Of a stretch of DNA of 20,797 nt, positions 48-17,085 are shown piece after piece. The stretch is from a virus. Both the position numbers and the translations under genes were made by a program. The number at the start of each line of letters is the position of its first letter. Position 1 is the first letter of the stretch. Location of the stretch: the IMG/VR virus record IMGVR_UViG_3300042389_000401, positions 1 to 20,797 of that record; one strand, given 5' to 3'. The notes beneath the pieces are model-generated. The model was not told the DNA's origin. It saw only the letters and a list, made by a program, of their open reading frames with translations, and made no database searches.

Positions 48-123
48 GGATCGTTAGCTCAGCTGGTAGAGCATTTGACTCTTAATCAACAGGTCGTAGG
101 TTCGAACCCTACACGGTCCACCA
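48..123 (+). tRNA. tRNA-Lys (CTT)
   Basis: Complete 76-nt cloverleaf with CCA encoded. The acceptor GGATCGT pairs with ACGGTCC, with one G-T. The anticodon loop is CTCTTAA on a TTGA/TCAA stem, giving anticodon CTT. It is the first of two Lys tRNAs here; the other, at 1348, has anticodon TTT. Confidence 0.96.
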
Positions 124-135
124 TTTTGTGATTGT

Positions 136-209
136 TTCCCGATGGTGTAATGGTAGCATACGAGTCTCCAAAACTCTTGGTTGCGGTTCAAGTCCGTATC
201 GGGAACCCA
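136..209 (+). tRNA. tRNA-Trp (CCA)
   Basis: 74-nt cloverleaf with acceptor TTCCCGA/TCGGGAA, anticodon loop CTCCAAA (anticodon CCA) and encoded CCA end. The discriminator base reads C, whereas bacterial tRNA-Trp usually has G73, so charging efficiency may differ. The other elements look normal: D-loop GG and T-loop TTCAAGT. Confidence 0.93.
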
Positions 210-317
210 TCTTCTAATGCATAGTGTGAGAACTCCCGCACTTAATAATGGGATACGGTGTGTGACTCTACCTAATGAAAAGAGCAGGAGCGGTGGTTAC
301 TTACACCGCAGCTATTT
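210..317 (+). ncRNA. 108-nt non-coding spacer in tRNA array with 3' hairpin
   Basis: No gene or tRNA fits here although most neighbouring tRNA spacers are only 4-12 nt. The clearest structure is a hairpin, GCGGTG at 290-295 with CACCGC at 304-309 (8-nt loop). It can be extended by AAAAGAGC (278-285) against GCTATTTT (311-318), which has one G-A mismatch. The extended stem reaches the first base of tRNA-Asn. The 5' part shows only weak pairing. It could be a stable small RNA processed with the tRNAs, or a decayed tRNA. Confidence 0.35.
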
Positions 318-392
318 TGGCGCGTAGATCAGCGGTAGATCAGCTGACTGTTAATCAGCCTGTCGGTGGTTCGATCCCACCCGTGCCAGCCA
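318..392 (+). tRNA. tRNA-Asn (GTT)
   Basis: 75-nt cloverleaf with acceptor TGGCGCG/CGTGCCA (one G-T). The anticodon stem GCTGA/TCAGC encloses loop CTGTTAA, so the anticodon is GTT. T-arm GGTGG/CCACC, discriminator G, CCA encoded. Confidence 0.94.
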
Positions 393-555
393 TCTTGGTG
401 ACCTGCAGATACATCTGACGGGTTCATCCTATCAGTGTAGGGGCTTTTCCGTTTCGGTAGCACTGATTGAAGTATGAGGCAGAACGGAATGTAATCTATG
501 TTGCGTGGGGGCATAGATAAGAACGAACCTTAAATGGTAGCCCACGCCTTATTTT
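393..555 (+). ncRNA. candidate structured RNA with H-type pseudoknot
   Basis: This 163-nt gap between tRNA-Asn and tRNA-Ala has no gene but contains several perfect stems. CAGA (405-408) pairs with TCTG (414-417), and ATCAGTG (431-437) with CACTGAT (461-467). ATCTATG (494-500) pairs with CATAGAT (512-518), and GCGTGGG (503-509) with CCCACGC (541-547). The last two stems interleave with 2-nt, 2-nt and 22-nt loops, the geometry of an H-type pseudoknot. T4's tRNA cluster also encodes stable RNAs of unknown function. The function here is unknown and the fold is by eye only. Confidence 0.5.
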
Positions 556-629
556 GGGGACGTAAGCTAACGGGAAACTGACGCCCTTGCACGGCGTACT
601 TGTGGGTTCGATTCCCACCGTCTCCACCA
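556..629 (+). tRNA. tRNA-Ala (TGC)
   Basis: 74-nt cloverleaf. Acceptor GGGGACG/CGTCTCC carries one G-T. The anticodon stem ACGCC/GGCGT encloses CTTGCAC, giving anticodon TGC. The expected G3-U70 alanine determinant is present. CCA encoded. Confidence 0.94.
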
Positions 630-632
630 CTT

Positions 633-742
633 TTGTTGTTTGTAAGCCCAGAGGCTAGATCGAGCGTTATGTAACTATCACAATACAATCCCGTTATCGA
701 TCGTAAAACGGGTGAGTCGATAGCATAGAGTGCAAACAACAA
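633..742 (+). ncRNA. candidate ~110-nt structured RNA, three-way junction
   Basis: A 10-bp perfect closing stem, TTGTTGTTTG (633-642) with CAAACAACAA (733-742), encloses two branches. One is a short hairpin, AGCC (645-648) with GGCT (653-656). The other is a long arm: TTATG (667-671) with CATAG (724-728), CTATC (675-679) with GATAG (719-723), capped by CCCGTT (690-695) with AACGGG (707-712). It has no tRNA features and no ORF. It lies between tRNA-Ala and tRNA-Gln, so tRNA processing (RNase P at the Gln 5' end) would free it. Unknown class; function not inferred. Confidence 0.6.
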
Positions 743-750
743 TCTTCTCT

Positions 751-824
751 TGAGGAGTCGTCTAACGGCAGGACAGCAGGTTTTGATCCTGCTTATCGTG
801 GTTCGAATCCATGCTCCTCAGCCA
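751..824 (+). tRNA. tRNA-Gln (TTG)
   Basis: 74-nt cloverleaf with perfect acceptor TGAGGAG/CTCCTCA. The anticodon stem GCAGG/CCTGC encloses TTTTGAT, giving anticodon TTG. Discriminator G and CCA encoded. The unstable U1-A72 pair and G73 fit known glutamine identity elements. Confidence 0.95.
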
Positions 825-830
825 AAATTT

Positions 831-917
831 GGACAGGTTGGAGAGCGGTTAAATCCAATTGACTGTAAATCAATCACCCTACGGGTTACGCTAGTTCGAA
901 TCTAGCCCTGTCCACCA
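831..917 (+). tRNA. tRNA-Tyr (GTA)
   Basis: 87-nt type II tRNA with acceptor GGACAGG/CCTGTCC and anticodon stem ATTGA/TCAAT around CTGTAAA (anticodon GTA). It has a long variable arm, normal for bacterial tRNA-Tyr. Discriminator A and CCA encoded. It follows tRNA-Gln after only 6 nt. Confidence 0.95.
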
Positions 918-922
918 ATTAT

Positions 923-997
923 GTGATGGTTGACTAATGGTAAGTCCCCAGGTTGTGATCCTGGTATATCTGGGTTCGAGTCCCAGTCATCACCCCA
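923..997 (+). tRNA. tRNA-His (GTG)
   Basis: 75-nt cloverleaf: acceptor GTGATGG/TCATCAC, anticodon stem CCAGG/CCTGG around TTGTGAT (anticodon GTG), discriminator C, CCA encoded. The base before position 1 is T rather than the G-1 that normally pairs with C73 in bacterial tRNA-His. The canonical G-1:C73 identity pair is therefore not encoded in this reading. Confidence 0.92.
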
Positions 998-1001
998 CAA
1001 T

Positions 1002-1077
1002 GGGACCATAGCTCAGTTGGTAGAGCAAACGCTTGATAAGCGTTAGGTCACTGGTTCGAGCCCAGTTGGTCCCACCA
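1002..1077 (+). tRNA. tRNA-Ile (GAT), copy 1
   Basis: 76-nt cloverleaf: acceptor GGGACCA/TGGTCCC, anticodon stem AACGC/GCGTT around TTGATAA (anticodon GAT), CCA encoded. It is closely similar to the Ile(GAT) gene at 3164, with most differences in the stems. This is one sign that part of the array was duplicated. Confidence 0.95.
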
Positions 1078-1085
1078 TTTTGTTT

Positions 1086-1175
1086 GGAAGATTGACAGAG
1101 AGGCTTATTGTCGCTGTTTGCTAAACAGATGGGGTAGAAATACCCACACAGGTTCAAATCCTGTATCTTCCGCCA
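1086..1175 (+). tRNA. tRNA-Ser (GCT)
   Basis: 90-nt type II tRNA: acceptor GGAAGAT/ATCTTCC, stem CTGT/ACAG around TTGCTAA (anticodon GCT). A long variable arm with a GGGT/ACCC stem and discriminator G are serine features. CCA encoded. It reads AGC/AGU. Confidence 0.95.
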
Positions 1176-1182
1176 ATACAAT

Positions 1183-1258
1183 AGAAACATAGCATAGCGG
1201 CTAATGCGCCACCTTCATACGGTGTTTATCGTGAGTTCGAGTCTCACTGTTTCTACCA
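1183..1258 (+). tRNA. tRNA with CAT anticodon (Met or lysidine-type Ile2), copy 1
   Basis: 76-nt cloverleaf: acceptor AGAAACA/TGTTTCT, stem CACC/GGTG around TTCATAC (anticodon CAT), CCA encoded. Its close relative at 2997 has the same loop. CAT is ambiguous between elongator Met and Ile2, where C34 is changed to lysidine and AUA is read. T32/C38 differ from the CTCATAA loop of the Met gene at 19252. It has none of the initiator features of the gene at 2471. Confidence 0.93.
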
Positions 1259-1267
1259 TTTTAACAT

Positions 1268-1342
1268 GTGACGGTGGCTGAAAGGTCAGGCAGAAGTCTG
1301 CAAAACTTCTTCATGCTGGTTCGAGTCCCGTCCGAGTCGCCA
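1268..1342 (+). tRNA. tRNA-Cys (GCA), degenerate copy
   Basis: The anticodon arm is perfect (AGAAGT/ACTTCT around CTGCAAA, anticodon GCA) and CCA is encoded. The acceptor GTGACGG against CCGAGTC has three adjacent mismatches at 2:71, 3:70 and 4:69. The T-stem has a T-C mismatch, and the discriminator is G instead of the U73 needed by cysteinyl-tRNA synthetase. The intact copy is at 3078. This one is probably decaying or has been repurposed. Confidence 0.8.
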
Positions 1343-1347
1343 TATTC

Positions 1348-1423
1348 GGGACCTTAGCTCAGCTGGTAGAGCAGTAGACTTTTAATCTATTGGTCAGGAG
1401 TTCGAATCTCCTAGGTCCTACCA
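1348..1423 (+). tRNA. tRNA-Lys (TTT)
   Basis: 76-nt cloverleaf: acceptor GGGACCT/AGGTCCT (G1-T72), stem TAGA/TCTA around CTTTTAA (anticodon TTT), discriminator A, CCA encoded. With Lys(CTT) at 48 it serves both lysine codons. Confidence 0.95.
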
Positions 1424-1427
1424 ATTC

Positions 1428-1519
1428 GCTCCTGTAGTGTAAGGTAGCACGACGAGTCTTATAAGCTCGATTCGCCAGATTAGCGGTTAGTCTTGGTTCA
1501 AGTCCAAGCAGGAGCACCA
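1428..1519 (+). tRNA. tRNA-Ile (TAT) with long variable arm
   Basis: 92-nt tRNA with perfect acceptor GCTCCTG/CAGGAGC and T-arm CTTGG/CCAAG. The anticodon stem CGAGT/GCTCG (one T-G) encloses CTTATAA, giving anticodon TAT, which would read AUA. The variable region is about 22 nt with a TCGC/GCGG hairpin. Length of that kind belongs to Leu, Ser and Tyr tRNAs, not Ile. The aminoacylation identity is therefore uncertain. CCA encoded. Confidence 0.85.
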
Positions 1520-1532
1520 AACGGAGATTGTT

Positions 1533-1940
1533 ATGGATACTTACAACAGAACATTTGCTAAGACAGTAACGTATAGAATAGTAACATTCATACTTACATT
1601 TGTCTTAACATACTTAATAACTGGTGATGCCTTTCCATCTGCAACGATTGCAATTCTCTCGTTGACTGCTGGTGCCTTATCGTTTATAATACACGAACGT
1701 CTTTGGACGAGAGTGAAATGGGGCAACTTGGGCGGAATCGATCGTAAGATTAGATCAGTTGCGAAAACAATTACATATAGACTTTGGTCATTGTTCATCG
1801 TCTTTGTAATTGGACTATTTCTTGGAATGGGTGGTGGTGATGCAGCATTGCTAACTATCGCTCTCAACATTATGTACTTGACCACACACTACGTAAATGA
1901 GAGGTTGTGGAATAGAGTGAAATGGGGTAAGATATACTAA
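1533..1940 (+). CDS. DUF2061 family membrane protein, two tandem domains
   Basis: 135 aa. Two copies of the DUF2061 pattern are visible, at about residues 7-65 and 73-132. Each starts with a K-T-x-T-Y-R motif, contains two hydrophobic segments and ends with E-R-L-W-x-R-V-K-W-G. This predicts a four-helix integral membrane protein. DUF2061 proteins are small bacterial and phage membrane proteins of unknown function. GGAG at 1523-1526 lies 6 nt before the ATG, supporting this start. The gene sits wholly inside the tRNA array, 13 nt after tRNA-Ile(TAT) and 6 nt before tRNA-Pro, so it probably shares their transcript. Confidence 0.88.
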   Translation: MDTYNRTFAKTVTYRIVTFILTFVLTYLITGDAFPSATIAILSLTAGALSFIIHERLWTRVKWGNLGGIDRKIRSVAKTITYRLWSLFIVFVIGLFLGMGGGDAALLTIALNIMYLTTHYVNERLWNRVKWGKIY

Positions 1941-1946
1941 TAGTTT

Positions 1947-2023
1947 CGGATATTAGCTCAGTCTGGTAGAGCACCTGCTTTGGGAGCAGGGGGTCGCAAG
2001 TTCGAGTCTTGCATGTCCGACCA
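1947..2023 (+). tRNA. tRNA-Pro (TGG)
   Basis: 77-nt cloverleaf: acceptor CGGATAT/ATGTCCG, stem CCTGC/GCAGG around TTTGGGA (anticodon TGG), discriminator A, CCA encoded. C1-G72 fits the bacterial proline identity pair. Confidence 0.95.
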
Positions 2024-2029
2024 ATTTTC

Positions 2030-2114
2030 GCGACTGTGGTGGAATCGGTATACACAACAGACTTAAAATCTGTCGGCGTCAGCCTTGTCGGTTCGAGTCC
2101 GACCAGTCGCACCA
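2030..2114 (+). tRNA. tRNA-Leu (TAA)
   Basis: 85-nt type II tRNA: acceptor GCGACTG/CAGTCGC, stem CAGA/TCTG around CTTAAAA (anticodon TAA), long variable arm, discriminator A, CCA encoded. It reads UUA/UUG, codons that suit this AT-rich phage. Confidence 0.95.
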
Positions 2115-2121
2115 AGTTTAT

Positions 2122-2198
2122 GGCCTCGTAGCTCAGTGGATTAGAGCAACAGCCTTCTAAGCTGTGGGTCGCAGGTTCGAGTCCTGCCGGGGTCGCCA
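2122..2198 (+). tRNA. tRNA-Arg (TCT)
   Basis: 77-nt cloverleaf: acceptor GGCCTCG/CGGGGTC with two G-T pairs, stem CAGC/GCTG around CTTCTAA (anticodon TCT), discriminator G, CCA encoded. It reads AGA/AGG, the Arg codons that dominate genes such as the one at 10168-10764. Confidence 0.95.
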
Positions 2199-2206
2199 GT
2201 TTATTG

Positions 2207-2235
2207 TTGACTTTATACATATAGTTTAGTACAAT
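2207..2235 (+). promoter_or_regulatory. sigma70-type promoter before tRNA-Thr
   Basis: TTGACT (2207-2212), a 17-nt spacer and TACAAT (2230-2235) match the bacterial -35/-10 pattern closely. The 46-nt gap is wider than most spacers in the array. Transcription would start a few bases before tRNA-Thr at 2245. It shares TAGTACAATACA with the promoter at 5466. Confidence 0.65.
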
Positions 2236-2244
2236 ACAGATATC

Positions 2245-2320
2245 GCCCACTTAGCACAGCTGGTAGTGCACCTGATTTGTAATCAGGGGGTCGGGAGTTC
2301 GATCCTCTCAGTGGGCACCA
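2245..2320 (+). tRNA. tRNA-Thr (TGT)
   Basis: 76-nt cloverleaf: acceptor GCCCACT/AGTGGGC, stem CCTGA/TCAGG around TTTGTAA (anticodon TGT), discriminator A, CCA encoded. It is the first gene after the promoter at 2207. Confidence 0.95.
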
Positions 2321-2470
2321 TTTCTTAAAAACATAAATAACAATCGCCGCACTAACCTTTCGGTGTAAGTGTTATGCGCACGGCGCTGGCGTTATAGGAT
2401 CCAGCTACTGCTCGAGAAGTAGCACTCAGTAGCGCGCTGAGGGAAAAGATGAACCGATACCTTTTTTTGT
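2321..2470 (+). ncRNA. candidate structured RNA upstream of tRNA-fMet
   Basis: This 150-nt gap has no ORF but several stems. CGCCG (2345-2349) pairs with CGGCG (2381-2385), enclosing CACT/AGTG and ACC/GGT (2350-2371). GCTACT (2404-2409) pairs with AGTAGC (2418-2423), and CTCAG (2425-2429) with CTGAG (2437-2441). A seven-T run lies at 2462-2468. ATAACA (2337-2342) could instead pair with TGTTAT (2370-2375), crossing the CGCCG stem as a pseudoknot or switch. The T run is too far (21 nt) from the last stem for a standard terminator. Function unknown. Confidence 0.5.
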
Positions 2471-2545
2471 TGCGGGGTAGAGAAGTAGCAACTCGTTAGC
2501 CTCATAAGCTAAAGACCGGTGGTGCAAATCCATCCCCCGCTACCA
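2471..2545 (+). tRNA. initiator-like tRNA-fMet (CAT)
   Basis: 75-nt tRNA, anticodon loop CTCATAA. The body strongly resembles bacterial initiator tRNA: GCGGGG near the 5' end, CCCCGC near the 3' end, an unpaired 1:72 (T-T here, C-A in E. coli) and an A11-T24 pair, both initiator hallmarks. The usual three G-C pairs at 29-31/39-41 are absent (AGC/GCT instead). The D-loop has A18 rather than G18, and the T-loop reads TGCAAAT, with G at position 55. CCA encoded. Confidence 0.85.
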
Positions 2546-2555
2546 ACTTAATATT

Positions 2556-2828
2556 ATGACACTAGATCAATTCAATAGTATATTTCCTTTCGTAGCAAGC
2601 ACTGCTGTTATACTGAACATTCGCAGAGTGTATCAGGATAAGATTGTTAAGGGAATCCATTGGGCCAGTCCTCTTATCAATTACACTGGCCAGATATCAG
2701 GAACATACTTACTATATTCATTAGGTCAGTACTATTCTATGATGGCAGGTATTTGGTATACCATGTTGTCTGTTACTTGGTATTGTATGATGATATACTA
2801 CAACTACATTAAAAAGATGCCCGGTTAG
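2556..2828 (+). CDS. small three-helix membrane protein, PQ-loop/SemiSWEET-like
   Basis: 90 aa with about three hydrophobic segments (roughly residues 8-24, 38-58 and 62-85). The first helix is followed by a basic stretch and K-G-I-H-W, which recalls the R-x-K-x-x-x-G-[IV]-S pattern after helix 1 in PQ-loop/SemiSWEET proteins of about the same length. SemiSWEETs form dimeric sugar pores, but sugar transport here is only a guess from size and topology. Its last three codons and TAG stop lie within tRNA-Val (10-nt overlap), so the stop is tRNA positions 8-10. No strong ribosome site is visible before the ATG, which is 10 nt after tRNA-fMet. Confidence 0.75.
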   Translation: MTLDQFNSIFPFVASTAVILNIRRVYQDKIVKGIHWASPLINYTGQISGTYLLYSLGQYYSMMAGIWYTMLSVTWYCMMIYYNYIKKMPG

Positions 2829-2894
2829 CTCAGCGGTAGTAGCATCTCCTTTACACGGAGAGGGTCGGCGGTTCAATCCCGTCACCGGGTACCA
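2819..2894 (+). tRNA. tRNA-Val (TAC)
   Basis: 76-nt cloverleaf: acceptor GCCCGGT/ACCGGGT (G1-T72), stem CTCC/GGAG around TTTACAC (anticodon TAC), discriminator A, CCA encoded. Its first ten bases are also the end of the membrane-protein gene at 2556-2828. Confidence 0.94.
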
Positions 2895-2996
2895 TATATA
2901 ATATAGCCTCGTACTGCTCAGGCAAGTGGGGCAAAGGCCGGTGGCTCGCGGCGCCAAGCACGAAAAACGCCTTGGCCAACATGAGCCTCCTTTTAT
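2895..2996 (+). ncRNA. candidate GC-rich structured RNA in tRNA array
   Basis: This 102-nt gap has no gene and is GC-richer than its surroundings. GCCAAG (2953-2958) pairs perfectly with CTTGGC (2971-2976), nested inside GGCTC (2943-2947) with GAGCC (2983-2987). A separate small hairpin is GCCT (2906-2909) with AGGC (2920-2923). It ends 9 nt before the next tRNA, so processing could free it. Class and function unknown. Confidence 0.42.
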
Positions 2997-3072
2997 AGCA
3001 ATGTAGCATAGCGGCCAATGCACCTCCTTCATACGGAGTTTATCGTCAGTTCGAGTCTGACCATTGCTACCA
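2997..3072 (+). tRNA. tRNA with CAT anticodon (Met or Ile2), copy 2
   Basis: 76-nt cloverleaf: acceptor AGCAATG/CATTGCT, stem CTCC/GGAG around TTCATAC (anticodon CAT), CCA encoded. It resembles the gene at 1183 along its whole length and, like it, is followed directly by a Cys tRNA. The pair looks like a duplicated block. Confidence 0.93.
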
Positions 3073-3077
3073 TGTTT

Positions 3078-3152
3078 GTTGCGGTGGCAGAAAAGTTATG
3101 CAAGAGTCTGCAAAACTCTTTTATGCTGGTGCGAGTCCAGTCCGCAACTCCA
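3078..3152 (+). tRNA. tRNA-Cys (GCA), intact copy
   Basis: 75-nt cloverleaf with perfect acceptor GTTGCGG/CCGCAAC, anticodon loop CTGCAAA (anticodon GCA) and U73, the cysteine discriminator. Compared with the copy at 1268 the D-loop has A18 instead of G18, and the T-loop is TGCGAGT, with G at 55. CCA encoded. Confidence 0.94.
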
Positions 3153-3163
3153 TATACATATAA

Positions 3164-3239
3164 GGGACAATAGCTCAGTTGGTAGAGCAAAGTGTTGATA
3201 ACGCTTAGGTCCATGGTTCGAGCCCATGTTGTCCCACCA
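3164..3239 (+). tRNA. tRNA-Ile (GAT), copy 2
   Basis: 76-nt cloverleaf: acceptor GGGACAA/TTGTCCC, stem AAGTG/CGCTT (one T-G) around TTGATAA (anticodon GAT), CCA encoded. Near-duplicate of the gene at 1002, with compensating changes in the stems. Confidence 0.95.
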
Positions 3240-3253
3240 CTTTGAGGTTTGCT

Positions 3254-3613
3254 ATGAGATTCTTAACAAGGAAGTTAGTCCAGCCAAGTGATCTAAATGT
3301 AAGAGGTACTCTGTTTGGAGGACGACTTCTTGCCTGGGTCGACGAGGAGGCAGCAATCTTTGCCGGCGTTGAGGCAAGGCACAATAAAGTTGTCACTAAG
3401 AGCATTTCAGCAATCGATTTCATTGCACCAGCATTCCAAGGGGATATTATTGAGATTGGTGTAAGATTGAAATCAGTTGGTAGGACCTCTATCACTGTTG
3501 AGGTCCAAGTACGCAATCTTGTTACTCAAAAAGTAATAGTCAACATTGATGAGATGATATTTGTTTGCGTAGATGAAAATGGCAAACCAACACCACACAG
3601 TCTAAGAAAGTAA
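3254..3613 (+). CDS. acyl-CoA thioesterase, hotdog fold (YciA-like)
   Basis: 119 aa from ATG 3254. GAGG at 3244-3247, 6 nt upstream, favours this start over the TTG at 3242. The N-terminal part carries the acyl-CoA hydrolase pattern: N15, G18, F21-G22-G23, and the expected catalytic acidic residue D30 in W-V-D-E-E. A strand-rich hotdog core follows. The family hydrolyses acyl-CoA thioesters in the cytoplasm and acts as dimers or hexamers. It directly follows tRNA-Ile and is 1 nt from the next methyltransferase, so they are likely co-transcribed. A phage could use it to alter host fatty-acid flux, which is an inference. Confidence 0.82.
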   Translation: MRFLTRKLVQPSDLNVRGTLFGGRLLAWVDEEAAIFAGVEARHNKVVTKSISAIDFIAPAFQGDIIEIGVRLKSVGRTSITVEVQVRNLVTQKVIVNIDEMIFVCVDENGKPTPHSLRK

Positions 3614-3614
3614 T

Positions 3615-4196
3615 ATGGCATACCTACCAGAATACTTGGAATTCGTTACAGAAGCAATTAGGCTTGAGTTCTTTCAGCCTAATGGACTATCAATGTTTGA
3701 GCTTGGTAACCAAAGATTTATTGGTGGTGAGTTCTCAACTGGTAAACAACATTTTGAACACTATGGTATGCTTCACACATCCGTTGATATTAATGGAGAG
3801 GATGGAGCACTTGCTTTAGATTTAAGAAAGCCAGAACTCTTCTATGACTTCAGATGTAGATATGATGTCCTAACTAATCTTGGCGTCACAGAACATGTTG
3901 AACCAATTGTCAGCCAGTATGAATGCTTTTCTATTATTCATGATGTCGTAAGAGCTGGTGGCATTATGATTCATATGGTACCTGATGTTGAGGAGTTAGA
4001 TGTTAGTGGTGCTTGGAATAAGCATTGTAGTATCTATTACCAAAAAGAATTCTTTAGTGAACTAGCCGAACAATGTAACTATACCATTCTAGAGAATAAG
4101 GTCATCTTCGGATTAAGATCTGTAGTGCTAAGAAAAGAAACAGCAAGATCATTCACAACAAACGCTGAGATATTTTCTTTGATACAACAAAGATAA
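3615..4196 (+). CDS. class I SAM-dependent methyltransferase-like protein
   Basis: 193 aa. Residues 27-40 (M-F-E-L-G-N, then F-I-G-G) resemble the glycine-rich SAM-binding motif I. S-V-D-I-N-G near residue 56 fits the acidic end of strand 2. A Y-D-V-L-T-N-L-G-V-T-E-H-V-E stretch matches the motif seen in small phage and cell-surface methyltransferases, and Val-Arg-Ala-Gly-Gly after a helix is typical of motif post-III. Motif I is not perfect. The substrate cannot be read from sequence. It lies between the thioesterase (1-nt gap) and the oxygenase. Confidence 0.68.
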   Translation: MAYLPEYLEFVTEAIRLEFFQPNGLSMFELGNQRFIGGEFSTGKQHFEHYGMLHTSVDINGEDGALALDLRKPELFYDFRCRYDVLTNLGVTEHVEPIVSQYECFSIIHDVVRAGGIMIHMVPDVEELDVSGAWNKHCSIYYQKEFFSELAEQCNYTILENKVIFGLRSVVLRKETARSFTTNAEIFSLIQQR

Positions 4197-4204
4197 ATAA
4201 TTTT

Positions 4205-4768
4205 ATGGTTAAATTGATTAATAACATTCCTCAAAAAATTGTTAATGATATTGAGCTATGGGTAACGAGTACAAAGATCCCATGGTTTTTCTTTACTCAT
4301 ACATTGGGTGAAGACCAAAGAGGTAGTCATAAAGTAGATCAGGATACTTATACAATAGCTGATCTACCACGTCTTACTCACTACTTCTATCCAAATTCCA
4401 AATCGCCTGAGAATGATAGAAAGTTCATTATGCCATTGACCCAATGGTGCCGGGCAAATATCTTACCTCCAAACTATGAGGTAAGAAGAGTGATGGGTAA
4501 CTTAACAACTCAGCTAAGAGACGCTGAATTGCTTTTGAACATTCCTCATGTTGATTCAGATGATGGTGAAAAATTTACGTTTCTCTACTATGTAAACGAC
4601 AGTGATGGCCAGACTGTGTTTTTCGAGGATGGTAAGATTGTATGTGATGCAACACCAGTAAGAGGTACTGGCGTCCTGTTTCCATCCAACACTGTTCACG
4701 CAGGACAAGTGCCTGCCATGAACAAATCGAGATATGTTATTAACTGTTTATTTGAAAAGCGGGATTGA
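4205..4768 (+). CDS. Fe(II)/2-oxoglutarate-dependent oxygenase, paralogue A
   Basis: 187 aa. The C-terminal half shows the double-stranded beta-helix facial triad: H115-x-D117, distal H165 in V-H-A-G, and R176 for 2-oxoglutarate. Y-Y-V-N-D-S-D-G-x-T and L-F-P-S-N are shared with the paralogue at 4845 and are typical of phage P4H-like oxygenases. Such enzymes hydroxylate protein or nucleic-acid substrates; the target here is unknown. ATAAATAA at 4193-4200 could be a T4-type late promoter. The last three codons and TGA stop overlap tRNA-Gly by 10 nt, with the stop at tRNA positions 8-10. Confidence 0.85.
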   Translation: MVKLINNIPQKIVNDIELWVTSTKIPWFFFTHTLGEDQRGSHKVDQDTYTIADLPRLTHYFYPNSKSPENDRKFIMPLTQWCRANILPPNYEVRRVMGNLTTQLRDAELLLNIPHVDSDDGEKFTFLYYVNDSDGQTVFFEDGKIVCDATPVRGTGVLFPSNTVHAGQVPAMNKSRYVINCLFEKRD

Positions 4769-4832
4769 TGTAATGGTAGCCTGGAACCTTGCCAAGGTTC
4801 ACGCGCGAGTTCGATTCTCGCATCCCGCTCCA
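4759..4832 (+). tRNA. tRNA-Gly (GCC)
   Basis: 74-nt cloverleaf: acceptor GCGGGAT/ATCCCGC, stem GAACC/GGTTC around TTGCCAA (anticodon GCC), U73 as expected for glycine, CCA encoded. It overlaps the end of the upstream oxygenase gene by 10 nt. Confidence 0.95.
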
Positions 4833-4844
4833 TTTAGGTAATGT

Positions 4845-5465
4845 ATGGTTGATTCTCTAACAGTAAATCCCTTATTAGCAGACTCAGTAGAAAAAGAGTT
4901 GCTGAGTATTAAACCAACATGGCAATATGTTGGGATGACAAATTACTTTTATGATGTTTCAGATCCCGGCATAAGATCTCTTCTTAACAACATTAACGCA
5001 AAGTATGGTCCTGTCGTTGACACTCAAAGATTTACAGATGAGTATGTCAATAGATTTGTAAAACCTGATGTTAGATTCATCGACATTCGCAGCAACCCAA
5101 ACTCGCGTTACAACAAACATTTTCCAAATGTCGCTAGACTTGTTGATTATATACAAACTGCATACATTCCTAAAGAGTATGCTGTGTATAGATTGATGAC
5201 AAATATTCAAACAATCAGACCCAAATGGACTATGAATGCTCCTCATCCAGACACGAGGTTGGATAAGTTTATTACAGTTTTATACTATGTTAACGATAGT
5301 GATGGTGATACCTTTTTCTTTGATGGGGACGAATGCATAAGCAGAGTGAAACCTATCAAAGGTACAGCTGCAATGTACCCATCTAATACGTGGCATGCTG
5401 GCTCAACACCAGTTGAGCATGAAACGAGAGTGGTTATCAACATGGTGTTTGGACCAAATAAATAG
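4845..5465 (+). CDS. Fe(II)/2-oxoglutarate-dependent oxygenase, paralogue B
   Basis: 206 aa. The triad is H134-x-D136, distal H184 in W-H-A-G and R195. The C-terminal 75 residues align readily with the gene at 4205 (Y-Y-V-N-D-S-D-G-D-T, then Y-P-S-N-T-W-H-A-G), while the N-terminal 100 residues differ. The pair probably arose by duplication, with tRNA-Gly now between them. Substrate unknown; capsid, tail or nucleotide modification are all possible. A weak AGGT site precedes ATG 4845. A sigma70-like promoter begins right after its stop. Confidence 0.85.
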   Translation: MVDSLTVNPLLADSVEKELLSIKPTWQYVGMTNYFYDVSDPGIRSLLNNINAKYGPVVDTQRFTDEYVNRFVKPDVRFIDIRSNPNSRYNKHFPNVARLVDYIQTAYIPKEYAVYRLMTNIQTIRPKWTMNAPHPDTRLDKFITVLYYVNDSDGDTFFFDGDECISRVKPIKGTAAMYPSNTWHAGSTPVEHETRVVINMVFGPNK

Positions 5466-5494
5466 TTGATTGTTAAAGTAATTTGTAGTACAAT
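5466..5494 (+). promoter_or_regulatory. sigma70-type promoter for tRNA-Ser and TonB receptor
   Basis: TTGATT (5466-5471), 17-nt spacer, TACAAT (5489-5494). It is followed 9 nt later by tRNA-Ser(TGA) and then the receptor gene. The -10 region shares TAGTACAATACA with the promoter at 2207, so both probably belong to one temporal class. Confidence 0.65.
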
Positions 5495-5503
5495 ACAAAC
5501 AAA

Positions 5504-5593
5504 GGAAGCGTGGTAGAGCGGGTGAATACGCTAGTCTTGAAAACTAGAAGCCCTTTACAGGGCTCGAAGGTTCGAATCCTTCCGCTTCCGCCA
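5504..5593 (+). tRNA. tRNA-Ser (TGA), intact
   Basis: 90-nt type II tRNA: acceptor GGAAGCG/CGCTTCC, stem CTAGT/ACTAG around CTTGAAA (anticodon TGA), strong variable arm AGCCC/GGGCT, discriminator G, CCA encoded. A second, broken Ser(TGA) gene lies on the far side of the receptor gene. Confidence 0.96.
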
Positions 5594-5614
5594 TTTATTT
5601 TATTGAGGTGAATT

Positions 5615-7702
5615 ATGAAAAAAGCAATTTTGTTTTGTCTTATCTTTACTAATAGTCTTGTTGTTGCAAGCCCTCCTCAATTAGAGGAAGTAGTAGTAAC
5701 TGCACAGCGCAAAGTTGAGTTGTTACAAGAGGTACCTCTTTCTCTTTCGGTACTTTCCGAAGAAGACCTTGATTCAAGGCAAATTGAAACTGTTAAACAG
5801 CTTCTAACAAACTCCCCTAATGTCATTGGCAACAATAACCTTGCAACAGCAAGTGCTCTTAGCGTATTCATTAGAGGAGTTGGCACAACAGAGAATCTTG
5901 CAACAGCAGAAACATCAGTTGGTGTTTATGTTGATGGCGTGTATGTTGCTCGCCAAGGTTTCAACAACCTTGCACTCCATGATGTTGAGTCTGTTGAGGT
6001 CCTTCGCGGACCTCAAGGTGTATTGTATGGACGCAATACAAATGGTGGTGCAATTAAGATTAATTTTAACAAGCCAACATTTGAAAATGTAATGACCAAC
6101 AATGTTAGCTATGGTGCAGTGGATTATATCTATGGTGATAGTGTCATTAATACCCCAATTAATGAAAACTTGGCTGTTCGTTTCAATCTAAGTGCTTATC
6201 AATATGATGGGTTTGTAACAGCTCCCTATCTCAATAGGGATGTTAACGATGGTGATGGAAGATCTGGTCGCCTTGCCGCACGTTATAAGGATGACAACAT
6301 TGATGTAAATCTATCTGTTGATTACTCTAAGGTATCTACAAATGGCAATTTTCAAGTTGACATTGGTGGAATACTAACCGCAAGGCCGCCCGATCTTTTC
6401 ACTACGCTCTCAACATTCAATGCAATGAATAATAACGAGACTCGCGGCGCTATGCTCAATGTTACATACAATAATGATTATTTTGAACTTCAATCAATCA
6501 CTGGGTATAGAAAGCTAAACCAATTTGTCAGCTCTGATGCGTCTGGTCAACCAGTTTCCCTATTTACTTTCTATCAGGACCAACAATCTGAGCAAGTGAG
6601 CCAAGAAGTGCAGGCTGTGGGAAATGTGTCTAATAATTTAAGCTATGTTGGCGGCGTATATTTCTTTAAAGAAAACGCCGATGTTTATTTGTATGATATT
6701 CTAAGAACTGCACCAACAGCAAACGCATTAATTGCATCTAAAATCTTTGGTGTCGATATAGAAAACTATGCTGCATATGGACAGCTTGAGTATGTGTTGG
6801 ATAAAGTTACACTTGCTGCTGGCCTAAGATATACATCAGAAGATAGAGATCTTAGAATTGTTCAGACAAGCAACAATCCTAGCTCACTCTTCAATTTTAA
6901 CACAAATGCTTTGGATGCAAGAGGAGTTGCTACAAGAAAAACTTATAGTGACACCACGCCTCGAATGAGCGTGAGCTATAAGGTGAATGATAATGCATTT
7001 CTTTACGCCTCCTACACCGAGGGGTTCAGGGCAGGTGGCTGGACAGGTAGAGCTGTAAGGGTTGATCAGTATGTGAATTTCAACCCAGAAAATGTACAAA
7101 CTACAGAAAGTGGTTTGAAATTGAATGGCGCTAACTGGAGATTGAACACAGCTGTATTTAATACAAAGTACACTGACCTATTCAACACATTGGCAATTAA
7201 TGGTGTGTTCACTGTGCAGACAGCCAATGCAAAAATTCAAGGACTAGAAACAGAAGGTAGCTGGCTAGTAACTGATTGGCTAAATGTCTATGGAAGTGTT
7301 GGGTTACTTGATACAAAGTACACTGGCAACCGCCCAGCAAACCTAGCCACAGAACTTCAGAGAGCACCAAGCACACAAGTTAAGGTTGGTGCTAAAGTTA
7401 TGTGGGGGAATTTGGAATGGAATGTTGGAGCTTATGACGCCAGCGAGTATAGACTTACCCCAGCCAATCTTGCTGTCACTGCACCAGCGCTTGCAGGGCG
7501 AGGGATTGAGCTAACAAAGGTACCAGTTGTTGTAGACAACTCGCTTACCTGGTCACCCAACCGTCGGTTCTCGCTAACACTTGCCTGCACAAATTGCTTT
7601 GATAAAGAGTTTGTCGAAGGTGCTGTTTATGTTGGCCAATGGGCTGGAGCATGGGCAGGCGACTCGCAGATGTGGTCAGTAACACTCTCGCAGCAGCTGT
7701 GA
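5615..7702 (+). CDS. TonB-dependent outer-membrane receptor
   Basis: 695 aa, a usual full length for the family. Residues 1-19 form a Sec signal peptide ending V-V-A-S. A TonB box, E-E-V-V-V-T-A-Q-R, lies at 24-32. The plug runs to about 150 with F-I-R-G-V-G (85-90) and L-R-G-P-Q-G-V-L-Y-G-R-N (130-141). The rest is alternating beta-barrel strand sequence, ending M-W-S-V-T-L-S-Q-Q-L. Such receptors import siderophores, heme, B12 or glycans using TonB-ExbBD energy. The substrate cannot be told; no heme FRAP/NPNL box was noticed. GAGGTG at 5605-5610 supports ATG 5615. The open frame and lack of damage imply function. The final codons and stop fall in a ruined tRNA-Ser. Phages commonly use these receptors for entry, but carrying one is rare. 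Confidence 0.93.
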   Translation: MKKAILFCLIFTNSLVVASPPQLEEVVVTAQRKVELLQEVPLSLSVLSEEDLDSRQIETVKQLLTNSPNVIGNNNLATASALSVFIRGVGTTENLATAETSVGVYVDGVYVARQGFNNLALHDVESVEVLRGPQGVLYGRNTNGGAIKINFNKPTFENVMTNNVSYGAVDYIYGDSVINTPINENLAVRFNLSAYQYDGFVTAPYLNRDVNDGDGRSGRLAARYKDDNIDVNLSVDYSKVSTNGNFQVDIGGILTARPPDLFTTLSTFNAMNNNETRGAMLNVTYNNDYFELQSITGYRKLNQFVSSDASGQPVSLFTFYQDQQSEQVSQEVQAVGNVSNNLSYVGGVYFFKENADVYLYDILRTAPTANALIASKIFGVDIENYAAYGQLEYVLDKVTLAAGLRYTSEDRDLRIVQTSNNPSSLFNFNTNALDARGVATRKTYSDTTPRMSVSYKVNDNAFLYASYTEGFRAGGWTGRAVRVDQYVNFNPENVQTTESGLKLNGANWRLNTAVFNTKYTDLFNTLAINGVFTVQTANAKIQGLETEGSWLVTDWLNVYGSVGLLDTKYTGNRPANLATELQRAPSTQVKVGAKVMWGNLEWNVGAYDASEYRLTPANLAVTAPALAGRGIELTKVPVVVDNSLTWSPNRRFSLTLACTNCFDKEFVEGAVYVGQWAGAWAGDSQMWSVTLSQQL

Positions 7703-7780
7703 TAGAGGAATAAAGCTCCTGACTTGAAATCAGACGTGGGGGCAACCTCACCGTGAGTTCGAATCTCACCCCTTCCGCCA
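7693..7780 (+). pseudogene. tRNA-Ser (TGA) with 5' half destroyed by receptor gene end
   Basis: The 3' two-thirds are normal: CTGA/TCAG around CTTGAAA (anticodon TGA), a GTG...CAC variable arm, T-arm GTGAG/CTCAC, acceptor CCCTTCC, G73 and encoded CCA. The matching 5' acceptor should be near GGAAGGG but reads GCAGCTG. Only four of seven positions can pair, including a G-T. The D-stem does not form and the D-loop lacks GG. The receptor's TGA stop is at 7700-7702, where tRNA positions 8-10 would be. Probably non-functional as a tRNA; the intact Ser(TGA) is at 5504. Confidence 0.8.
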
Positions 7781-7817: not shown

Positions 7818-8444
7818 ATGAAAAAGTTATTGACACTAGCTGCTGTTACCTTAGCCACCACTGCATTTGCTCAAGACGAATTAGTTGAGCCAAAGGGAAT
7901 GCAGGACATAATGGCTGAAGTTGTTACTGGCAAGTATAGAATGAAGCAAGCCAGTGCAGCACCTTGGGATGTTGATGTTGTAACAACCAGTGCCCACATT
8001 AATGCATTTATCGACGGTGAGATTTGTAACTCACCAGAGTTTGATGTTAAGTTTGTAAAGCAACAAACGAGCACTGTCGCCAAGTGGCGAAATCCTATTG
8101 GCTTTGAATCTGTTACATATAAAGGTAAGCTGGAAGTAACATCAGAAGATAGAACAATGACGATGCTGATGGAGAGCAATTCTAAGGGAATGGTTCTTCG
8201 TAGAACTGTTGTGTATTCAGGTGGCCAAAAGCTTAATTGGCTTTGGCTAGGTACAGGTACTGTAATAAAGGGGATGAGCGGTGGTCCAGTTGTTGCTGAT
8301 AGTGATGGGAGTATTGTTGGTATTGTTATGGGCCGTCCTGCCAAGGGATTGAAGAAGTACCAGTTTGAAGAAAACAAGTATGGCGACCTAACTCTATTTG
8401 TACCTTATGATGTTGTAGATTTCGTTTGGAGAAACTGCAAATGA
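7818..8444 (+). CDS. exported trypsin-like serine protease
   Basis: 208 aa. Residues 1-18 form a clear signal peptide (K-K, hydrophobic core, T-A-F-A then Q). The catalytic triad of the chymotrypsin/HtrA fold is visible: H60 in T-S-A-H, D76 in E-F-D-V-K-F-V and S154 in G-M-S-G-G-P-V, followed by G-S-I-V-G-I. There is no PDZ domain. The two cysteines C70 and C207 could form a disulfide. It should act in the periplasm or outside the cell. AGGA at 7807-7810 precedes the ATG by 7 nt. It starts 38 nt after the ruined tRNA-Ser, and its stop overlaps the next start (ATGA). Its target is unknown; processing of envelope proteins or of the receptor is possible. Confidence 0.82.
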   Translation: MKKLLTLAAVTLATTAFAQDELVEPKGMQDIMAEVVTGKYRMKQASAAPWDVDVVTTSAHINAFIDGEICNSPEFDVKFVKQQTSTVAKWRNPIGFESVTYKGKLEVTSEDRTMTMLMESNSKGMVLRRTVVYSGGQKLNWLWLGTGTVIKGMSGGPVVADSDGSIVGIVMGRPAKGLKKYQFEENKYGDLTLFVPYDVVDFVWRNCK

Positions 8445-9601: not shown

Positions 9602-10171
9602 GTGTCCCTTGTGTTGATTGCTGATAGTGCTGGTACCCCAAAAGATTGGGTTAACTTTGAAACTGCTGTTTGCTATTACGCTAAAGACAAAGTTGTTTGG
9701 GAAGCGGGCTCCCCCATAAGGGAGTTCCTAGGTGGCCACAACTATGTTGGCAAACAATCCAAAATTACTATCTCCTCCATCCTTGGTGTATCTGGTCCAA
9801 TCCTTGGATCTGCATTCTACGATAAAGAATCAATCTACGCAGACCGCTATGTTCTCTACTCTCGTGACCGCCACATCTGCGCATACTGCGGTGACCAGTT
9901 CTTAGCAAGAGACCTAACTATCGACCATGTGATGCCTAAGTCTCGAGGTGGCAAGAATAACTGGACAAATGTTGTTGCTGCCTGTAAGCCTTGCAACCAT
10001 AGAAAGGGTAACAAGACGCCAGAAGAAGCAAGGATGCATCTTCTCTACGTTCCCTATGTGCCTAACATCTTCGAGAAGATGATTCTACGTAACAAGAAGA
10101 TCTTGGCTGACCAGATGGAATTCCTAATTGGTAGGATTCCAAAGCATAGTAGAATCTTTCCTCTACAATGA
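9602..10171 (+). CDS. HNH endonuclease
   Basis: 189 aa from a GTG start with AGGAG at 9591-9595. A classic HNH module occupies residues 91-136: C93-x-x-C96, T-I-D-H109-V-M-P-K-S-R-G-G, N-W-T-N, C128-x-x-C131-N-H133. The cysteines bind structural zinc and H109 is the general base. The N-terminal 80 residues are unlike free-standing homing enzymes, and this type is common in bacteria and phages as a nicking or restriction-like nuclease. Roles in host DNA breakdown or homing are both possible. The stop overlaps the next ATG (ATGA). Confidence 0.9.
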   Translation: MSLVLIADSAGTPKDWVNFETAVCYYAKDKVVWEAGSPIREFLGGHNYVGKQSKITISSILGVSGPILGSAFYDKESIYADRYVLYSRDRHICAYCGDQFLARDLTIDHVMPKSRGGKNNWTNVVAACKPCNHRKGNKTPEEARMHLLYVPYVPNIFEKMILRNKKILADQMEFLIGRIPKHSRIFPLQ

Positions 10172-10764
10172 AGCTACCAGGGCTACTGTTCAAACTAGGT
10201 ACAGTAGATGTTAGTAAGATTGAAGAAGAAGTCAATAGCCTAACACACGATCAATGGATAGAATGGGACCTGAGGCAGAATAGATACAAAGTCCACTCTG
10301 CCACAGAGTCCTATCCTTTGATGTTCTCAGAGTATGGTGAAGAGCCAAAGTCCTACAATGTTGGCTCACCATTATGGAACGCTACTCAGCATCTAATCAG
10401 TAAGCTCGAGACATTCTATAATAGAAAGGTTGGGGCAGCTGTCTATGTTAAGTTGAAACCAAACACAAACATTATACCTCATACAGATGGTGGCTGGTTT
10501 GTTGATACTCATAGAGTCCACATTCCGATAGTTACAGACCCTGGAATCTTATTCTCTCTTACAGATAAGAAGTTCCATTTGGAGAAGGGTTCAATTTACG
10601 AACTCAACAATCTTGTAGAGCATGGCGTTGAGAATCCTACTGGCGTTGGTAGGGTACATTTGATGGTCGATATCCTACCTGATAGAACCGTAAACACTGC
10701 AGTTTTAAAAAGTCCTTTAGAATCAATAGGTTACGAATCCTTAAAAATCAACGAGTTAGCGTAG
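10168..10764 (+). CDS. aspartyl/asparaginyl hydroxylase-like 2OG-Fe(II) oxygenase
   Basis: 198 aa. The triad is H105-T-D107, distal H152 in V-E-H-G-V and R162 in G-R-V-H-L-M-V-D. The order I-I-P-H-T-D-G, then H-R-V-H-I-P-I-V, then E-L-N-N matches the Asp/Asn beta-hydroxylase family (PF05118). It is distinct from the two oxygenases upstream. All six Arg codons are AGA/AGG. The last 18 codons and stop lie within the repeated stem-loop cassette at 10709, so the C-terminal tail was probably added by that cassette. Confidence 0.85.
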   Translation: MKLPGLLFKLGTVDVSKIEEEVNSLTHDQWIEWDLRQNRYKVHSATESYPLMFSEYGEEPKSYNVGSPLWNATQHLISKLETFYNRKVGAAVYVKLKPNTNIIPHTDGGWFVDTHRVHIPIVTDPGILFSLTDKKFHLEKGSIYELNNLVEHGVENPTGVGRVHLMVDILPDRTVNTAVLKSPLESIGYESLKINELA

Positions 10765-16668: not shown

Positions 16669-17085
16669 ATGATCTTCAGAGAAGACATTAACACTCGTAA
16701 GATCTATAAGTTCGAACGAGAGTACTTCTGGGGTGAACCTTCTCTCCCTATGAAGATGCTTCAAGATCTTGCAAACAAGATCTGGGAATCAGAAGGTAAA
16801 GAAGAACCTTTGCCTCGTGTTGTCTCTGGCAAAGGAACCAAGTATAGTGGGCGGTACTTCTCCTACTTTGATGGCGAGAAGATTGAACTTGCTCGGTCAG
16901 AGCGTAAGAGAACTGTCCTCATACACGAGATGGTTCATGCGCTTGGATACGACAAGCACGATGATGGGTTTGCCTGTAAGTACTTCGAACTGCTAGAGCA
17001 GTTTGCTGGTTGCAGTCGCAGAGAACTTTTGTACATTGGTATTGAGTATAAGTTGGTAGAGGAACCGGAAGCAGACATATGGTAG
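16669..17085 (+). CDS. HExxH zinc metallopeptidase-like protein
   Basis: 138 aa. H86-E-M-V-H90-A-L-G-x-x-x-x-H97-D-D provides three zinc-ligand candidates and the catalytic Glu, preceded by a helix and a strand (R-K-R-T-V-L-I). This resembles the SprT-like/WSS1-like type of small metallopeptidase found in T4-like phages. No signal peptide, so a cytoplasmic target such as a DNA-bound or host protein is likely. It lies 1 nt after the 80-aa gene and overlaps the ligase start by 7 nt, suggesting a link with DNA metabolism. Activity is inferred from the motif only. Confidence 0.8.
   Translation: MIFREDINTRKIYKFEREYFWGEPSLPMKMLQDLANKIWESEGKEEPLPRVVSGKGTKYSGRYFSYFDGEKIELARSERKRTVLIHEMVHALGYDKHDDGFACKYFELLEQFAGCSRRELLYIGIEYKLVEEPEADIW

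Follow-up and report, generated by a model that had tools for sequence, protein, structure and literature searches.

The Receptor Locus

The window, i.e. the whole stretch of DNA analyzed here, comprises an entire IMG/VR record (20,797 bases). Its run of 23 tRNA genes (48-5593) ends, on the 3′ side, with tRNA-Ser(tga) (5504-5593), and directly downstream of this tRNA lies a gene for a TonB-dependent receptor (TBDR), in agreement with the first-pass annotation, which had placed the receptor within a phage tRNA array. The features of the locus are as follows.

5466-5494, + strand: putative promoter-like site, TTGATT-N17-TACAAT, upstream of tRNA-Ser
5504-5593, + strand: tRNA-Ser(UGA), the upstream border of the cargo site
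5605-5610, + strand: ribosome binding site GAGGTG, read from the sequence, 4 nt before the TBDR ATG
5615-7702, + strand: TBDR, 695 residues, full length, ATG start
5615-5668, + strand: predicted signal peptide, TBDR residues 1-18, cleavage between VVA and S proposed from the translation
5681-5707, + strand: TonB box LEEVVVTAQ, TBDR residues 23-31
5711-6064, + strand: plug domain, TBDR residues 33-150 (PF07715)
6089-7699, + strand: 22-strand β-barrel, TBDR residues 159-695 (PF00593, AlphaFold2, Foldseek)
7693-7780, + strand: damaged tRNA-Ser(UGA)-like sequence, with TBDR codons in place of the 5′ acceptor strand
7818-8444, + strand: secreted trypsin-like serine protease (PHROG 9683), with conserved His60 in TSAHI and Ser154 in GMSGGP

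The receptor was annotated as full length, and this description holds: the ORF (5615-7702, + strand) has zero internal stops, and plug, barrel and TonB box are all present. The proposed Pfam check gave matches far above the curated cut-offs for both the Plug (PF07715; residues 38-146, 2.7e-20, 73.3 bits versus a cut-off of 23.9) and the barrel (PF00593; residues 225-660, 1.1e-30, 108.3 bits versus a cut-off of 27). By eye, the N-terminus reads MKKAILFCLIFTNSLVVA followed by S, with MKK, a hydrophobic core and a VVA-S junction (ASA-A in a relative), and TonB box residues Glu25, Val26, Val28, Thr29, and Ala30 are invariant across 49 aligned TBDRs. Modeling of the barrel, also proposed earlier, yielded a confident AlphaFold2 structure with a plug and a 22-strand barrel (mean pLDDT 87.2, pTM 0.88), which Foldseek matches to full-length TBDRs in the PDB, the best being FyuA (TM 0.81/0.88) over the whole receptor. 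A CTNC motif occupies residues 658-661, and the last residue is Leu, the corresponding residue being Phe in both phage relatives and Phe, Trp, or Tyr in 78 of the 91 bacterial TBDRs compared. The receptor scored only 147.3 bits against TIGR01783 (TonB-siderophore), below the cut-off of 223.5 bits, and gave no match to TIGR01782 (TonB-Xanth-Caul, cut-off 310 bits).

Elsewhere in the window, two adjacent and related 2OG-Fe(II) oxygenase-type proteins (4205-4768 and 4845-5465), whose C-terminal halves are about 39-40% alike, are encoded amid the tRNA genes, as is, inside the array, a 135-residue DUF2061 membrane protein (1533-1940; Pfam, 1.2e-14) that has no PHROG match and is kept by relatives at 71-74% identity. 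A conserved 198-residue protein without a known family is encoded at 10168-10764. In one relative, two neighboring ORFs upstream of the tRNA array give Nol-like carbamoyltransferase matches (L046:12206-14896).

tRNA Borders and Transcription

The tRNA-Ser(UGA) is found at the equivalent position in three relatives (L053, L178, and L179). Only 21 nt separate it from the TBDR ATG, which is too little space for a separate promoter, and the promoter originally ascribed to the receptor gene itself was therefore rejected; the ribosome site assigned to it (GAGGTG, 5605-5610) was retained. A promoter-like site lies instead upstream of tRNA-Ser, where L178 and L179 have TTGACN-N17-TATAAT/TATTAT sites, and the TBDR is therefore probably co-transcribed with tRNA-Ser. 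The site at 5466-5494 probably serves both genes, although promoter-like sites in the region are at chance level (10 found versus 10 expected).

Comparison of the tRNA-Ser-like sequence at 7693-7780 with an intact Azospirillum tRNA-Ser, and likewise with the annotated tRNA-Ser of Xanthomonas phage LucasX, identified it as the second tRNA-Ser(UGA) of the array. With respect to the Azospirillum tRNA, its first seven bases are the final TBDR codons, and the TBDR stop TGA occupies tRNA positions 8-10. ARAGORN made no tRNA call at 7693-7780, and the Rfam score was under the gathering cut-off. The sequence is a probable dead pseudogene, and a deletion may have fused the 3′ end of the TBDR gene to the tRNA, damaging the latter. 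The span 5504-7780 given in the annotation does contain the receptor gene, but its end takes in this damaged sequence.

The Same Receptor in Related Phages

A viral scan using the TBDR alone as query returned zero relatives, and DNA-level similarity to known phages was confined, among the matches listed, to tRNA genes. The DNA ligase gene at 17079, together with neighboring oxygenase, AAA, and HNH genes, provided the lead to relatives. IMGVR_UViG_3300021962_007022 (68 kb) encodes a TBDR 52% identical to that of the window at the equivalent site, in the order tRNA-Gly, 2OG oxygenase, tRNA-Ser(UGA), TBDR, tRNA-Leu(UAG), protease, 75-residue ORF, AAA protein. IMGVR_UViG_3300021961_007069, from a separate assembly, is identical to it over 21.9 kb. 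IMGVR_UViG_3300022200_008771, from a third metagenome, begins inside the TBDR, with a C-terminal piece 60% identical to that of the window, and continues with tRNA-Leu, protease, 75-residue ORF, and AAA genes.

Since the window is a single 20.8-kb metagenomic contig, its receptor could in principle stem from a chimeric assembly or from bacterial DNA contaminating a viral contig. The recurrence of the tRNA-Ser/TBDR/tRNA/protease/75-residue ORF/AAA order in other contigs, and the agreement of two assemblies plus a third metagenome, make this explanation vanishingly improbable. The equivalent gene order in viral contigs, together with versions of the site that lack the receptor (below), removes the earlier concern over a chimera or an exclusively bacterial block and upholds the claim that the gene is phage-borne. 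It is phage-encoded, of host-metabolism type, and intact in related phages, as are phage AMGs.

Baseplate genes share the 68-kb contig with the TBDR, and genes for gp23-like head, portal, and sheath proteins occur in a 101-kb relative. The closest counterparts of the head protein are those of Stenotrophomonas phage DLP6 (70%), Methylophilales phage Melnitz, Sinorhizobium phages, and pelagiphages. Judged from sequence, the window virus is a T4-superfamily phage (myovirus).

Wherever the site carries the TBDR (three of three phages), the secreted serine protease adjoins it, and both TBDR-less sites lack the protease. A strict TBDR-protease module is weakened, however, by protease homologs without an adjacent TBDR in L215, L216, and L218. 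Modeling of the protease gave low confidence (pLDDT 60), and a trypsin-like fold is supported by its C-terminal half only.

A Cargo Hotspot between tRNA Genes

In L178, which has no TBDR at this site, tRNA-Ser is followed after 43 bp by tRNA-Leu and then by a 132-residue ORF; in L179, also TBDR-less, tRNA-Ser is followed by a 128-residue ORF resembling that of L178. Among more distant relatives, tRNA-Ser and tRNA-Leu are adjacent in L218, and an oxygenase-like gene lies between them in L235 and L215. The 188-kb contig of another relative stops 13 bases past the upstream oxygenase gene. The varying contents between tRNA-Ser and tRNA-Leu imply that this interval is a cargo hotspot, of which the TBDR is one cargo. 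L178 also encodes a 788-residue protein in its tRNA array (L178:5454-7820), a large cargo just before tRNA-Gly.

Such variability would be expected if the receptor were passing cargo, i.e. a bacterial gene caught at a tRNA-array recombination hotspot from which the phage gains nothing. The absence of a TBDR from most related contigs and the fusion of the 3′ end of the window gene to a damaged tRNA point in the same direction. Three intact or in-frame versions of the receptor in diverged phages argue against it, as do the substitution pattern, composition, and phylogeny described below, and we consider passing cargo distinctly improbable.

Constraint and Conservation Pattern

Constraint was assessed from the two full-length phage receptors, with topology assigned from the model. 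For this pair omega is about 0.2 (a rough value, dS being near saturation), compared with 0.04-0.15 for neighboring genes, a value at odds with passing cargo; the window-type receptor clearly appears to be under coding constraint, with no decay. The TBDR is nonetheless more divergent between the phages (52% identity versus 66-91% for most neighbors; dN 0.43 versus 0.05-0.25), and the higher dN could reflect faster change for other reasons.

Divergence is unevenly distributed over the receptor. The TonB box region (residues 22-32) is 82% and the plug 69% identical between the two phage receptors, and the extracellular loops (about 56-57%) are better conserved than the barrel strands (46%), a contrast resting on a single full-length phage pair (about 2 SD, an estimate) plus the C-terminal piece. 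Between the phages, conservation is strong in loops 309-316, 473-491, 614-632, and 660-685. In bacterial pairs of similar divergence the loops (42-50%) are less conserved than the strands (52-53%), although some distant pairs (such as L161-L150; loops 40%, strands 37%) go slightly in the same direction as the phages. The phage loops are 31% identical to those of the closest bacterial receptor. Because the TonB box, plug, and loops are the best-kept parts, a functional importer whose ligand is particular to these phages is favored over a decoy or an escape role. Receptor evasion through loop diversification predicts that loops are the least conserved, the opposite of what was observed.

These patterns bear on two further explanations. 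TBDRs, FhuA among them, are common entry points for phages and colicins, and phage-coded porins can replace a host porin, as does the Lc porin of phage PA-2. The phage-made TBDR might thus fill the outer membrane or alter surface receptors and so block competing phages or bacteriocins (receptor switch or superinfection exclusion). The faster divergence of the TBDR relative to its neighbors is consistent with such a role, as is the adjoining secreted protease, which could act on surface proteins. For exclusion, however, a receptor would need neither TonB box nor plug, yet no other part of the protein is conserved as well; the loops facing outward, at which escape is expected to operate, have changed less than the strands; and an extra TBDR is an extra possible entry point. 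Moreover, the known proteins that act on TBDRs in exclusion, Cor and Llp, are small inhibitors and not receptors (PMC11436027; PDB 8a60). We therefore judge exclusion unlikely.

Alternatively, TBDR copies in lysed membranes or vesicles might serve as decoys that absorb competing phages or bacteriocins, or might guard against binding to debris, and a full-length receptor would indeed bind TBDR-targeting particles. Nothing in a decoy role would select for retention of the TonB box and plug, the loops are conserved in a way opposite to that expected of an arms race, and receptors on debris would absorb the phage's own progeny should these use TBDRs; this explanation seems very unlikely. Of the roles put forward in the first-pass annotation, uptake thus stands as the best explanation, while decoy and replacement of a lost receptor sit poorly with the conserved TonB box, plug, and ligand-side loops.

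Origin and Bacterial Relatives

The search for bacterial relatives covered GTDB contigs together with sampled genomes of Pseudomonadota and Alphaproteobacteria. Among the bacteria sampled, the best match to the window TBDR has 40% identity (L161). In the receptor phylogeny, called for by the earlier note, the phage receptors are monophyletic, forming a single clade (support 100) whose neighbors are L161 and a receptor from Eilatimonas, and no bacterial match exceeds 40% identity among the bacteria sampled; both results also count against a chimera, and the monophyly against passing cargo. The phage clade is nested in alphaproteobacterial TBDRs with a C-terminal CxNC motif (13 rows, SH-aLRT 100), and the window receptor has its CTNC at the corresponding place. 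A single phage clade with at most 40% identity to bacterial receptors implies that the capture is old. The GC3 of the window TBDR (0.33) lies within the range of neighboring phage genes (0.28-0.47), which likewise indicates an old resident, and this phage-like composition is a further point against passing cargo.

Some bacterial relatives adjoin genes for an MFS transporter, FAD-linked oxidase, acyl-CoA synthetase, or GMC oxidoreductase. These catabolic neighbors hint at organic compounds over iron as ligands, although an identity of 40% or less is too low for the assignment to be transferred. Iron uptake as an assignment from sequence was set aside, since the TIGR01783 cut-off was missed and some relatives lie near catabolism genes, neither of which is decisive.

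A Second, Unrelated Receptor Type

Scanning of 77 related phage records, many of them fragments, for PF00593 gave five positives, two with the window-type receptor and three (G869, G890, and G887) with another type of 834-838 residues, which matches TIGR01782 and lies on the opposite side of the tRNA array. The full-length representatives, each beside a metallophosphoesterase-like gene, are as follows.

L259:6603-9119: second-type TBDR (TIGR01782)
L260:6794-9298: second-type TBDR (TIGR01782)

TIGR01782 E-values for the two full-length receptors are 2e-170 and 1.6e-171 (L259/L260, 569-573 bits); a truncated copy stands at the start of the 173-kb contig G887. A very long branch parts the second type from the window type in the tree. 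The presence of two unrelated TBDR types in the phage group implies capture at least twice, and this second, independent type is a further argument against passing cargo. Among 50,697 deposited phage records, neither type has a match that reaches 60% identity, and the matching records, six per type, are mostly unannotated faecal contigs. A search for close bacterial relatives of the second type, run without a positive control, gave none at E 1e-120. The TBDR is dispensable, as most of the related contigs scanned, many being fragments, have none.

Proposed Role and Comparison with Known Systems

We consider it on balance probable that the window TBDR is a working auxiliary importer of a T4-superfamily myovirus, taken long ago from a CxNC-clade alphaproteobacterium and kept in a tRNA-array cargo site. 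The site is bounded by tRNA-Ser(UGA) and, among relatives, by tRNA-Leu(UAG), and the TBDR would be transcribed together with tRNA-Ser. The host BAM machinery would fold the receptor, made with a signal peptide, into the outer membrane, and host TonB-ExbB-ExbD would drive it via the TonB box, such that the infected cell may import one external compound faster or newly. We infer expression during infection, coupling to host TonB, and a benefit from uptake. A broader proposal, which we advance tentatively as a possibility to be taken seriously, is that this T4-type phage group repeatedly captures TBDRs, of at least two subfamilies, for use in infection, and that the tRNA-array lineage has evolved a receptor with its own ligand face, a TonB-driven nutrient channel that these viruses install in the host.

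TBDRs are among the principal routes by which water bacteria obtain scarce nutrients, and phages commonly enter through them. If phages bring their own TBDR, they would control the imports of the infected cell, beyond the usual internal metabolic genes. One site with and without the gene in related phages, plus two unrelated receptors in a single phage group, make the uptake idea directly testable.

The closest solved fold to the window TBDR is that of FyuA, the ferric yersiniabactin receptor (PDB 4epa), at 17% identity. Alphaproteobacterial CxNC TBDRs (Eilatimonas milleporae, Caulobacter, and others) share the plug and CxNC motif with the window receptor (SH-aLRT 99-100), but are chromosomal, with outer loops 31% identical to the phage ones. 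Although a TBDR in a phage was regarded as unexpected when the locus was annotated, there are precedents (PMC9723777; PMC10504331), and the kind remains rare. Polarivirus skadi, a marine pelagiphage isolate, has a gene annotated as a TBDR, which its authors interpreted as a hint at the adsorption receptor (PMC10504331); it lies between tail-tube and capsid genes, unlike the window TBDR in its tRNA array, and the Polarivirus skadi record was not among the tblastn matches to the window TBDR. The marine megaphage Mar_Mega_1 is, like the window phage, a tailed phage encoding a full TBDR, in this case SusC-type, and its authors propose raised carbohydrate uptake in infection (PMC9723777). The sole full-length TBDR match in the viral structure library, BFVD A0A8D9FQQ5 (TonB-dependent receptor SusC, uncultured marine phage), has the same fold as the window TBDR (Foldseek 5.9e-30, TM 0.69/0.60). 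The SusC phage receptor (Mar_Mega_1/A0A8D9FQQ5) differs, however, from that of the window in its SusC type, with 12% identity, and Mar_Mega_1 is a megaphage whereas the window virus is T4-type. The passage on the Mar_Mega_1 receptor describes neither a conserved site nor TBDR-less relatives nor repeated capture (PMC9723777). As far as our searches go, therefore, the occurrence in T4-type phages, the tRNA-flanked site with and without the TBDR, and the two unrelated captures are new.
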